Assembly: GCA_018266835.1 (NCBI GenBank)
Contig: JAFDZP010000002.1
Coordinates: forward strand, 905,302 to 969,301
Reading direction: 5' to 3'
Source: Bacteroidota bacterium
Lineage (GTDB): Bacteria > Bacteroidota > Ignavibacteria > Tepidaquicellales > Tepidaquicellaceae
DNA length: 64,000 nt
Each line of letters starts with the position of its first letter. The stretch's first letter is position 1. A program made the translations under genes and the position numbers. The notes beneath the pieces are model-generated. The model had not been told where the DNA came from. It made no database searches and saw only the letters and a list, made by a program, of their open reading frames with translations. Shown in pieces: positions 39,448 to 43,504 of the stretch.

Positions 39448-39472
39448 TCCCCCTCCTTGTAAAGGAGGGGGA
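39448..39472. repeat. REP-like hairpin, CCCCCTCCTT type
   Basis: TCCCCCTCCTT pairs with AAGGAGGGGGA around a GTA loop (11-bp stem). The 19-mer CCTTGTAAAGGAGGGGGAA at 39455-39473 recurs at 39563-39581. Palindromes of this CCCCCTCC/GGAGGGGG kind are common dispersed REP elements in many bacteria. Confidence 0.7.
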
Positions 39473-39523
39473 AGCTTGTGTGAAAATTTACTTCTTCTCG
39501 GATTAATATATTACAAATCTACC

Positions 39524-39581
39524 TCCCCCTTAATCCCTCCCGCCTTGGGCAGGACAAGCTTTCCTTGTAAAGGAGGGGGAA
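39524..39581. repeat. REP-like element, second copy with longer inner loop
   Basis: TCCCCCT (39524-39530) and AGGGGGA (39574-39580) enclose an inner GCC-rich segment. The right half repeats the same 19-mer as the previous hairpin in the same orientation, so the two form a BIME-like pair. Confidence 0.65.
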
Positions 39582-39970: not shown

Positions 39971-40450
39971 ATGGCAAATTTTCGCGTCGGCTTTGGTTAC
40001 GATGTTCACAGACTTGTAAAAGGAAGGAAACTTATTCTGGGCGGAGTAGAAATCCCGCACACAAAAGGACTTGAAGGCCACTCAGATGCAGACGTTCTTC
40101 TTCACGCAATATGCGATGCAATACTCGGAGCATGCGGATACAAAGATATCGGGCATCAGTTCCCCAATACAGATGACAAGTTCAAAGATATCTCAAGCTT
40201 AATTTTACTCGAGCAATCGTATAAGCTGATAAAGAAAAAGAAATATAAAATTGAAAATATTGATTGCGCCATAATTCTTGAAGAACCGAAAATTTACAAA
40301 TACACTGAGCAGATGAAAGAAAAAATTTCTAAGATCCTTAAAACCAAAAACATCTCGATAAAAGCTACAACCTCTGAAGGGTTAGGATTTGTGGGAGCTA
40401 AAAAAGGATGCTCCGCATACTGCACAGCACTTTTATATAAATCAAAATGA
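39971..40450 (+). CDS. ispF: 2-C-methyl-D-erythritol 2,4-cyclodiphosphate synthase
   Basis: 159 residues, standard IspF size. FGYDVHR at 8-14 holds the metal-binding Asp and His, GHSDADVLLHAICDAILGA follows at about 36-54, and TSEGLGFVGAKKG near 137 is the conserved C-terminal block. IspF makes the cyclic diphosphate in the non-mevalonate (MEP) route to isoprenoids. ispG, for the next step, is at 55628. The stop overlaps the next ORF by 4 bp (ATGA), so ispF heads an operon with a degenerate MNT-HEPN pair and murB. Confidence 0.97.
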   Translation: MANFRVGFGYDVHRLVKGRKLILGGVEIPHTKGLEGHSDADVLLHAICDAILGACGYKDIGHQFPNTDDKFKDISSLILLEQSYKLIKKKKYKIENIDCAIILEEPKIYKYTEQMKEKISKILKTKNISIKATTSEGLGFVGAKKGCSAYCTALLYKSK

Positions 40451-40746
40451 GTTACACTTACCACGAAGTTACCGACATAATAAATTCTCAAAAACCTTTC
40501 TTGGAAAGTAAATATGGCTTGGAAAAAATCGGTATATTTAATTTTCAGCTTGATAAGCATGGTGTAAAAGAGGCTGATTTTTTAGTCCGGTTCAAAAAAC
40601 CCATCGGAATGAAATTTATTGACTTCACTGAATTTATTGAAAGCTTACTGAACGTTGACGGAGAATTTCTTACTGAAGAAGGTCTTGAAAGCCTTAACGA
40701 TGAAGCATTCAAAAACGGAATAAAAAATAAGGTGCATAATGTTTGA
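40447..40746 (+). CDS. Degenerate MNT (minimal nucleotidyltransferase)-like protein
   Basis: 99 residues. The alignment pattern follows MNT/MntA antitoxins: a short helix, then a strand-loop-strand where active members have G-x-F-G-S and a D-x-D leading into a DLLVEF strand. Here the corresponding stretch is IGIFNFQLDKHG...KEADFLVRF, so GS has become N32-F33 and D-x-D has become E42-A43-D44. The following FIDFTEFIESLL and a late FLTEEGL match the usual LxxLL and V-D-L-V regions. The nucleotidyltransferase activity is probably lost. It overlaps ispF by 4 bp and the HEPN gene by 8 bp. The fold assignment is from motif reading only. Confidence 0.6.
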   Translation: MSYTYHEVTDIINSQKPFLESKYGLEKIGIFNFQLDKHGVKEADFLVRFKKPIGMKFIDFTEFIESLLNVDGEFLTEEGLESLNDEAFKNGIKNKVHNV

Positions 40747-41080
40747 GAAAGATGATAAAATAATTGTAAAAAATATTATGGATTCATTTGATAACATATT
40801 CAGTGAAACTGAAAAAATTTCCTATGAAGAATTTAAATCCGATTCTGCAAAAGTCCGTACAGTACTTTCAGAAATAGAATCCATAGGTGATAATTGCAAA
40901 AACATTACGGGAGAATTCCGGCTCTCTAATGAAGAAGTGAACTGGAACTACATAATAAAAACTCGCAGAAGATTATCGCACAAAATAATTTCTGCTGTAA
41001 ATACTGATGTCCTCTGGGCATTGATAAAAGAAGATTATCCGGGAATAAGAGATAACATTTCCAAATTATTAACCACATAA
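40739..41080 (+). CDS. HepT-like HEPN-domain protein
   Basis: 113 residues, all helical. The central ESIGDNCKNITGEFRLSNEEVNW and the C-terminal VLWALIKEDYPGIRDNI fit the HepT (DUF86) family. In canonical members the RNase motif is R-x4-H-x-Y, often RNRLVHxY. Here it reads R76-RRLS-H81-K-I83. The catalytic Arg and His are kept, but the Tyr that MntA-type partners adenylylate is Ile. It overlaps the MNT-like gene by 8 bp and is 4 bp from murB. Canonical HepT proteins are toxic RNases neutralised by the MNT partner; here neutralisation, if any, must work differently. Confidence 0.7.
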   Translation: MFEKDDKIIVKNIMDSFDNIFSETEKISYEEFKSDSAKVRTVLSEIESIGDNCKNITGEFRLSNEEVNWNYIIKTRRRLSHKIISAVNTDVLWALIKEDYPGIRDNISKLLTT

Positions 41081-41084
41081 ATTT

Positions 41085-42152
41085 TTGATAAGTATATTAA
41101 AGTCAGATGTACAGCTTGCCAATGTTACTACAATAAAATTAGGCGGCACGGCAAAATATTTTGCTCAGTTCAATAATGTTTATGAATTAAGACAGCTCCT
41201 GCAATTTGCAAAAAAGGAGAATCTGAAAATTCAGGTTATAGGCGGAGGAAGCAATATAATTTTTCCTGATGAAGGATTTAAAGGTCTTGTTTTAAAAAAT
41301 CATATTAAAGAACTGAACTACGCCATTAATGAGCATGATGTTTTTTTAAAAGCCGGCGGCGGAAATAACTGGGATGAACTTGTTTCATTCTGTGTAAATG
41401 AAGGCGCGCAGGGAATTGAATGTCTCTCCGGAATTCCGGGCAGCGTTGGCGCTACTCCCATGCAGAATGTAGGAGCATACGGACAGGAGGTCGCAGATAC
41501 AATTGTACATGTTCAGGCATTGCGTCTGGAAGATCTGGCAATAGTTAATTTTAACAGAGATGAATGCGGCTTTGGTTACAGGACAAGTATATTCAAACAG
41601 GAACAGAAAGATAAATACATTATTACTGAAGTTACTTTTATGCTAAGGCTGAACAAAGAACCTGAACTAAAATATAAAGAGCTTAAAGATGAAGTTGAAA
41701 AATTTTATGATTACAGTAACTTTTCAAACCGTGATAAATTAAAATTTGTAAGAGATAAGGTTATAGAAATAAGAAGAAGGAAATCTATGGTGATTGATGC
41801 GAATGATTCCAATTCAGTTTCATGCGGTTCTTTTTTTATGAATCCCGTTCTGAACGGAGAAGAATATAAAAAATTTGAAGAGACTTTATTTCACTTCCCT
41901 ATTAAACCGAAAGTATTTCAGACGGACGGCAAATATAAAATACCTGCAGCATGGCTTATTGAGAATGCGGGATTTCACAAAGGTATGAACAGGAACGGCG
42001 CGGCAATTTCTGAAAATCATTCACTTGCTTTGGTGAACAGAGGATGTACATCTGCGCAGTTATTAGAATTAGCAAATGATATTCAAAACAAAGTTAAACA
42101 GTTCTTTGGAATTAATTTGGTAATGGAACCGGTTATTGTAATTAATAATTAG
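41085..42152 (+). CDS. murB: UDP-N-acetylenolpyruvoylglucosamine reductase
   Basis: 355 residues, type I MurB with the longer C-terminal part. The start is TTG (41085), 4 bp after the HEPN stop. FAD-binding motifs are IGGGSNIIF near 56-64 and LSGIPGSVGATPMQNVGAYG (about 116-135). YRTSIFK holds the conserved Arg, and SCGSFFMNP near 245-253 contains the catalytic Ser position. KIPAAWLIENAGF and NHSLALVN close the C-terminal domain. The enzyme makes UDP-MurNAc for peptidoglycan with NADPH. The last codons run into a 7-bp repeat array. Confidence 0.96.
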   Translation: MISILKSDVQLANVTTIKLGGTAKYFAQFNNVYELRQLLQFAKKENLKIQVIGGGSNIIFPDEGFKGLVLKNHIKELNYAINEHDVFLKAGGGNNWDELVSFCVNEGAQGIECLSGIPGSVGATPMQNVGAYGQEVADTIVHVQALRLEDLAIVNFNRDECGFGYRTSIFKQEQKDKYIITEVTFMLRLNKEPELKYKELKDEVEKFYDYSNFSNRDKLKFVRDKVIEIRRRKSMVIDANDSNSVSCGSFFMNPVLNGEEYKKFEETLFHFPIKPKVFQTDGKYKIPAAWLIENAGFHKGMNRNGAAISENHSLALVNRGCTSAQLLELANDIQNKVKQFFGINLVMEPVIVINN

Positions 42153-42331: not shown

Positions 42332-42913
42332 GTGGCTAACACTCCTCACGAAAATACCAAAAGAGATATAAATTTATTAAGACGCGTTTCCGCCGGAGAT
42401 GAGTCGGCAATCGGCGAACTTTACGATTTTTATAATAAGTATTTATACACAACAATTTACTTCATTTTAAAGAATGAAGCCGAAGCAGAAGATGTACTGC
42501 AGGAAGTCTTTTTCTTAATATGGGATAAAATAGATACTTACGATGAACGTCTGGGAAATCCAATTTCATGGATGACTCGTATCTCAAGGAACAAGGCTAT
42601 AGATAAGCTGCGTGCAAAAAAACAAAATACTGATATCGATGAAACAAATGAGACTCTGATAATTGATATCAACGAGGACTATAAAAAAAGTAACCCTGAG
42701 TTTATTGCAGTTGCAGGGGAGGAACAAAAAGAAGTACTTGAAGCTATAAAAGAATTAGACGAGGTGCAGAGACAGTTAATAGAGTATGCCTATTACCAGG
42801 GCTTCTCTCATTCCGAACTCTCCGCGCACTTCAAAATTCCTTTAGGAACAGTTAAAACAAAGATCAGGTCAGCGATGATGTTTCTAAGAGAACGTTTAAA
42901 ACATTTAAACTAA
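42332..42913 (+). CDS. ECF-family RNA polymerase sigma factor
   Basis: 193 residues, starting with GTG at 42332 (MANTPHENTK). Region 2 is clear: GELYDFYNKYLY, EAEDVLQEVFFLIW near 51-64, and SWMTRISRNKAIDKLR near 79-94, which contacts the -10. Region 4 has a helix-turn-helix, YAYYQGFSHSELSAHF then GTVKTKIRSAM, near 150-183. A 50-residue linker lacks region 3, as in ECF sigmas. The cupin protein 15 bp downstream is the likely anti-sigma factor, so the pair resembles SigE-ChrR type stress systems. Confidence 0.93.
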   Translation: MANTPHENTKRDINLLRRVSAGDESAIGELYDFYNKYLYTTIYFILKNEAEAEDVLQEVFFLIWDKIDTYDERLGNPISWMTRISRNKAIDKLRAKKQNTDIDETNETLIIDINEDYKKSNPEFIAVAGEEQKEVLEAIKELDEVQRQLIEYAYYQGFSHSELSAHFKIPLGTVKTKIRSAMMFLRERLKHLN

Positions 42914-42928
42914 GATAAGGGTAGTATA

Positions 42929-43504
42929 ATGCAAGATGACATAATATTAAATTCGATTGGCGCGCTTAGTGAACCTGAAAAGGAAAAACTAATCTCATCC
43001 CTCAGAGAAGCGGGATTTGAAGAAGTGTTTCTCACTTCCGACGTAAACAACATTGTTGAAAAAATAAATAATGCCATATTCAATAATCCAAGCAGATTGA
43101 AATCACCTTCTGCAGGATTAAAAGATAAAATTATGGCAAGAATAAAAACATCACCACGAAAAGACGAACATAAAGATTTTGATTTCAAGTTTGCAGATTC
43201 CAAAGATGACTGGTTTGACCACCCGGTATTAAATGCTGTTAAGGTGAAGGTTCTTTCTATCAACAGAGAAAACAATTATGCAATGTTGATGATGAAAGTC
43301 CCTGCGGGAAATGAATATCCCGAGCATCATCATTCAGCTCCGGAAGAATGTTTAATTCTTGAAGGCGATTTTCAGGCAGAGGGCAGAGTACTTGGTCCGG
43401 GTGATTTCCATCATGCAGAGCCCGATACGGACCATGGCAAACTTTATACACGCACGGGAGTGACTTTATTGTTGGTTGTAAATCCCGCAGATTACGGTCT
43501 ATAG
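42929..43504 (+). CDS. ChrR-like cupin anti-sigma factor
   Basis: 191 residues, 15 bp after the sigma gene. An N-terminal helical part (about 1-80) is followed by a cupin barrel at about 100-185, with PEHHHSAPEECLILEGDF, VLGPGDFHHAEPDTDHG and a LLLVV strand. Candidate metal ligands are H133-H135, E139/E140, H161/H162 and H169. This matches the C-terminal cupin of ChrR, an anti-sigma factor that responds to singlet oxygen or peroxides. The N-terminal zinc ligands of classic ChrR (His and Cys) are absent: no Cys or His occurs in residues 1-80. AAGGG 12 bp before the ATG is one of the few SD-like sites here. Confidence 0.82.
   Translation: MQDDIILNSIGALSEPEKEKLISSLREAGFEEVFLTSDVNNIVEKINNAIFNNPSRLKSPSAGLKDKIMARIKTSPRKDEHKDFDFKFADSKDDWFDHPVLNAVKVKVLSINRENNYAMLMMKVPAGNEYPEHHHSAPEECLILEGDFQAEGRVLGPGDFHHAEPDTDHGKLYTRTGVTLLLVVNPADYGL

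Follow-up and report, generated by a model that had tools for sequence, protein, structure and literature searches.

The ispF-MNT-HEPN-murB operon

The DNA analysed here, called the window throughout, is a stretch of 64,000 nucleotides, and the genes of interest all lie on its forward strand. The first of them is ispF (39971..40450), encoding 2-C-methyl-D-erythritol 2,4-cyclodiphosphate synthase (Pfam YgbB, E 6.7e-66). It is followed by the gene for a degenerate MNT, or pseudo-MntA, of 99 amino acids (40447..40746), by that for a HepT-like HEPN protein of 113 amino acids (40739..41080), and by murB, the fourth gene of the operon, with a TTG start (41085..42152; Pfam MurB_C, E 1.4e-22). The ispF stop and the MNT start share the four nucleotides ATGA, the MNT and HEPN genes overlap by 8 nt (as they also do in the second genome described below), and a 4-nt gap separates the HEPN stop from murB. 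The four overlapping or abutting genes of the original prediction are therefore confirmed in place. With MNT upstream of HEPN and overlapping it, the two-gene module has the layout of type VII HEPN-MNT systems.

Directly downstream of murB lie genes for an ECF sigma factor and then a ChrR-like cupin (42332-43504), the latter probably the anti-sigma factor of its neighbour; both are conserved in the second genome. On the other side, the region between kynU and ispF measures 831 bp in the window genome versus about 220 bp in the second genome, and within the enlarged region a small, perfectly palindromic unit (CCTCCTTGTAAAGGAGGG) is present in two near-copies, at 39452-39577.

HEPN-MNT has been described as possibly the most abundant toxin-antitoxin module of prokaryotes, and AMPylation of a single tyrosine by a single motif is believed to be required for its neutralisation. 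In the pair considered here, neither the motif nor the tyrosine is present.

The MNT-like protein

The PADLOC profile PDC-S09 matches the MNT-like protein over its full length (residues 4-97, E 3.9e-8), and the same profile matches a canonical MNT at E 2.4e-25. No Pfam family, PF01909 included, matched the window protein at E up to 10 or its counterpart in the second genome at E up to 1. Searches of the PDB by sequence with two-sequence profiles returned nothing credible, while wider alignments did match. For each of the two proteins an AlphaFold2 model was built on an alignment of the window sequence with its homologs at related loci, and the MNT model has a pLDDT of 94.0. In VIA-align its first match is the putative minimal nucleotidyltransferase 1wot (Z 10.4, rmsd 2.5 over 92 residues), followed by MNT chains of HEPN-MNT complexes at Z 7-8; since unrelated folds start at about 7.4, 1wot alone stands well clear. 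Foldseek E-values were weak for both models, and the best-ranked matches were MNT chains for MNT and mostly HEPN chains of MNT complexes for HEPN. Judged by homology and by the nucleotidyltransferase fold of the model, then, the protein is an MNT.

What has become of its active site? The former catalytic loop (residues 32-44, 40540..40578) carries N32-F33 at the position of GS and E42-A43-D44 at that of DxD, just as had been read from the window; the second genome has N32-Y33 and Q42-V43-D44, so that D44 is kept in both. The third magnesium-binding aspartate (D71 of Shewanella oneidensis MntA) is E73 in both genomes (40663..40665 in the window; census and alignment, PMC7641770). In the alignment the G-loop is two residues shorter than the canonical one, with x8 rather than x10 between GS and DxD, and the GSX10DXD motif of type VII HEPN-MNT is absent from both proteins. 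In the model, the former G-loop region is a tight hairpin that joins strands 25-36 and 39-49, and the long alpha-4 helix is missing. By alignment, 1wot keeps both GS and DxD, unlike the present MNT.

Work on well-studied systems indicates what such losses do. S. oneidensis MntA, which binds Mg2+ through D39, D41 and D71, no longer AMPylates once its GS is changed to AT or its DxD to ExE (PMC7641770). In the Legionella pneumophila MNT, D48E alone, at the position of E42 here, abolishes AMPylation (PMC11586414). Because the first aspartate is now Glu or Gln, the third is Glu and GS has become NF or NY, nucleotide transfer is very unlikely, and these published mutants predict that AMPylation by the degenerate MNT should be impossible (PMC7641770, PMC11586414).

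The HEPN protein

The HEPN protein matches the Pfam HepT-like family PF01934 (E 8.3e-10; 38.9 bits, above the gathering cut-off of 23.5). The first eight VIA-align matches of its model (pLDDT 89.1) are all HEPN toxins of MNT complexes, at Z 11.0-12.5, and unrelated four-helix proteins begin at Z 9.5; because Z values under 13 are common for helical bundles, the identification rests on the Pfam match. With PF01934 on one side, PDC-S09 on the other, and solved MNTs and MNT-bound HEPNs as the nearest folds, the assignment of the pair to MNT and HEPN holds up.

The motif region reads R76-R77-R78-L79-S80-H81-K82-I83 (40964..40987; alignment and census) in place of R-N/D-x-x-x-H-x-Y. R76 and H81 of Rx4H are kept in both genomes, and the acceptor tyrosine is replaced by I83 in the window and L83 in the second genome, so that RX4HXY, the type VII motif, is lost; the R76-x4-H81 and the isoleucine originally read here both check out. 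Two further changes emerged from the alignment. The residue after the arginine is R77 in both genomes rather than the canonical Asn or Asp, which removes the ribonuclease pattern R-[N/D/H]-x3-H, and a helix-2 aspartate conserved in most canonical relatives (alignment D40) is R40 in the window and I40 in the second genome.

It had been proposed that the RNase core of HEPN persists. R76 and H81 do persist, and their retention in a protein only about 25-35% identical to its canonical relatives hints that catalysis may still matter. R77, however, aligns with N98 of S. oneidensis HepT, which is reported to be critical for toxicity on the basis of an error-prone PCR mutant changed at both 98 and 104 (PMC4621449), and with the helix-2 aspartate replaced as well, the core cannot be accepted as intact. 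Nor can activity be read from Rx4H alone, since the R98A and H103A variants of L. pneumophila HEPN remain active RNases, the active site there being placed on helix 2 (PMC11586414). In S. oneidensis HepT, R97G and H102A are not toxic while Y104A is still toxic (PMC4621449); loss of the tyrosine would thus not in itself disarm the protein.

These observations bear on the main rival to the interpretation developed below, namely that HEPN is still an RNase acting through R76 and H81 and that the pseudo-MNT neutralises it by stoichiometric binding, in a type II-like manner. Such a pair would account for the two residues kept in both genomes and for the antitoxin-first overlapping gene order, and it is compatible with the toxicity of Y104A HepT (PMC4621449) and with the finding that the hetero-octamer still assembles when S. 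oneidensis MntA carries D39E/D41E (PMC7641770). In S. oneidensis, however, binding without AMPylation is not sufficient for neutralisation (PMC7641770), and the present MNT lacks the long alpha-4 helix, while R77 and the missing helix-2 aspartate speak against a toxin that is still armed. Neutralisation by binding alone, also raised in the original prediction, can therefore be imagined, but we consider it rather unlikely.

A second genome and the rarity of the pair

The operon is also present in the one further genome of the genus in the comparison (G030; JAFDZO010000002.1, 'Bacteroidetes bacterium isolate SZAS-86'), where the products are 96% (IspF), 67% (MNT), 69% (HEPN) and 71% (MurB) identical to those of the window. 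The two genomes have in common a block that runs from kynU through ispF-MNT-HEPN-murB to the ECF sigma factor and cupin genes. The losses in the second genome are the same: N32-Y33, Q42-V43-D44 and E73 in MNT, and R76-R77-x-x-x-H81-x-L83 in HEPN. A sequencing error or single-strain oddity is ruled out by this genome, which shares the operon and the losses.

Two genomes are also the only ones to carry the degenerate pair: scans of 391 genomes from the class, of 84,980 species (one genome each) and of viral contigs brought no third copy to light. The degenerate pair itself served as the query for a similarity-based census of relatives, comprising 79 distinct MNTs and about 60 HEPNs, in which near relatives sharing its losses ought to have appeared. 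GS and D44 are kept in 77/79 MNTs, all but one of which also keep the first aspartate, and the two without GS are both from the present genus. On the HEPN side, every protein with a readable motif region keeps the acceptor tyrosine except the genus's two, and all the others have N, D or H after the arginine, where these two have Arg. Loss of GS and loss of the tyrosine thus coincide, and only in the two pairs with ispF-murB context. The idea that both halves of the modification reaction were lost together is borne out in both genomes, with GS, D42 and D73 gone on one side and the acceptor tyrosine on the other. We found no literature on inactive MNT-HEPN pairs.

Modification of HEPN in trans was considered and rejected. 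In the window genome (G000) no MNT capable of it scores above the Pfam cut-off, there is no other HepT-like gene, and the acceptor tyrosine is missing; G030 has four other MNT genes with intact motifs (L178, L180, L182, L183), mostly adjoining HEPN-like genes. Elsewhere, in several genomes (L034, L068, L069, L078, L175), the HEPN frame next to an intact MNT is cut short or carries a frameshift, as if toxins decay before antitoxins.

Selection on both genes

The MNT and HEPN genes are each of equal length in the two genomes, and although 27-29% of their nucleotides differ, neither gene shows an indel or a stop. The dN/dS ratios are 0.18 and 0.19 for MNT and HEPN, with dS about 1.2-1.3, and the substitutions fall 20/13/47 (MNT) and 29/18/52 (HEPN) by codon position. 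When the observed substitutions were redistributed at random, 0/5000 runs had as few amino-acid changes, and a stop arose in 96% and 99% of the runs. Both genes are thereby shown to be under purifying selection. The notion of a non-functional relic heading for loss might draw on the many active-site residues that are gone and on the truncated or frameshifted HEPN frames of other genomes, but it is largely refuted by these figures and scarcely deserves credence; a sequencing error or a fresh relic is likewise ruled out by the equal lengths, the open frames and the dN/dS ratios.

Conservation is uneven along the two proteins. MNT residues 32-51, the catalytic loop, are identical between the genomes at 7/20 positions (35%) versus 59/79 elsewhere (75%; p 0.0013), and no such drop was found in four comparisons of canonical MNTs, which argues that the loop is relaxed while the rest of the protein is held. 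In HEPN, residues 56-81, ending at the Rx4H motif, are the best conserved block (40904..40981), with 25/26 identical (96%) versus 53/87 elsewhere (61%; p 0.0005).

Perhaps the MNT active site has been rebuilt for another substrate, with HEPN as the substrate-binding subunit. D44 is kept, and HEPN-type domains are known as substrate-binding domains of nucleotidyltransferases (PMC3710099). Yet it is difficult to see how this new activity would work in a protein that has lost GS, D42 and D73, whose loop is its least conserved part between the genomes, and in which no rebuilt conserved acidic set is visible; we regard it as most improbable.

Genomic context of canonical relatives

The nearest paired relatives of both halves by BLAST are canonical pairs in two genomes of the sister family (G004 and G015). 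Their motifs are intact and they lie between hutU and ispH (Pfam Urocanase and LytB; L043 2489-3110 and L044 2469-3105). In three genomes (G005, G007, G014) hutU and ispH almost abut and the site is empty (L188, L189, L190), and in four more (G003, G006, G009, G010; L252-L255) it holds another small frame; the one tested, in G006, encodes a PD-(D/E)XK_3 protein, and those of the other three are similar. In the sister family hutU-ispH serves as a cargo site, used in a way that leaves the operon order undisturbed. HEPN-MNT cargo has also been noted inside the lysine operon of Thermus thermophilus HB8 (PMC2701414), and canonical HEPN-MNT cargo inserts cleanly into housekeeping operons in the taxonomic order studied here.

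The single closest MNT relative is in another genome (G042; L049 3-293), has GS and DLD intact and overlaps the end of hutU; neither murB nor HEPN was found in that assembly. In G016 and G043, hutU adjoins murB. A move of the pair together with murB from a hutU-MNT-HEPN-murB locus is a tempting but speculative idea; the G042 contig breaks off within MNT or right behind it. In trees of MNT alone and of MNT with HEPN, the degenerate pair forms a long, weakly placed branch.

These relatives bear directly on the suggestion that the pair is tied to isoprenoid and cell-wall genes. In its most explicit form, the pair would be a domesticated regulator of its own operon, adjusting isoprenoid and cell-wall precursor supply by autoregulatory RNA binding or mRNA cleavage. 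All four genes are translationally coupled in both genomes, the proximal ispF 5' region is conserved between them (76 nt, 83% identical), and in S. oneidensis MntA acts as a repressor of the promoter from which it is expressed (PMC4621449). Against this, ispF and murB are neighbours only in the present genus, none of the 42 further genomes from the order having shown them side by side, and insertion into an operon is ordinary, since intact pairs sit equally neatly between hutU and ispH; position between ispF and murB is therefore no evidence by itself of an isoprenoid or wall link. Retention of the neighbours is not special to the pair either, because the whole block from kynU to the cupin gene is kept in both genomes. 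The tie is not upheld, and own-operon regulation seems improbable. A link through the MEP pathway (ispF here, ispH beside the G004 and G015 pairs) was also considered and is probably coincidence, hutU-ispH being a general cargo site.

A pair without its chemistry

The present pair resembles S. oneidensis HepT/MntA of type VII (SO_3166/SO_3165; PDB 5yep, 6m6u, 6m6v, 7bxo) in the MNT-first overlap, the folds, and the R and H of RX4H. It differs in having no GS, no acceptor tyrosine, no asparagine after the arginine and no long C-terminal MNT helix, and in keeping only one of the three magnesium-binding aspartates. The L. pneumophila HEPN-MNT (PDB 8xeh, 8xeo) has the same two folds and, as here, a short MNT without alpha-4, but that MNT AMPylates its HEPN through an intact GSX10DXD, the motif lost in the present protein. 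The canonical G004 and G015 pairs share the antitoxin-first overlap inside a housekeeping operon, and differ in the operon and in their intact GS, DxD and RN-x3-H-x-Y. Kanamycin nucleotidyltransferase and GlnE (with a fused inactive HEPN) are domesticated toxin-antitoxin descendants that, like the present pair, have lost HEPN RNase residues; in them, however, the transferase stays active, whereas the clearest loss here is that of the transferase (PMC3710099).

The explanation that we favour, at about even chances, is that a former type VII HEPN-MNT pair was domesticated in the present genus as a non-enzymatic complex. The MNT and HEPN proteins probably have a new, non-toxic job. HEPN may have been disarmed first as an RNase toxin, which would have removed the need for AMPylation and left the MNT active site free to decay. 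Translation of the two proteins would still be coupled and they would still form a complex, and the conserved R76/H81 groove, now with its RRR stretch, may still bind RNA or a nucleotide, so that the complex would act as a regulator or adaptor rather than as a growth-stopping toxin. The more specific version, a pseudoenzyme pair in which both halves of the switch decayed together and the complex was selected as an RNA- or nucleotide-binding regulator in an operon of essential genes, is put forward more tentatively.

A natural pair that lacks both the donor and the acceptor sides, and is kept by selection, is a clean case for testing what function remains to the complex once the chemistry is gone. 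It also tests how a selfish toxin-antitoxin pair turns into a resident cellular gene.
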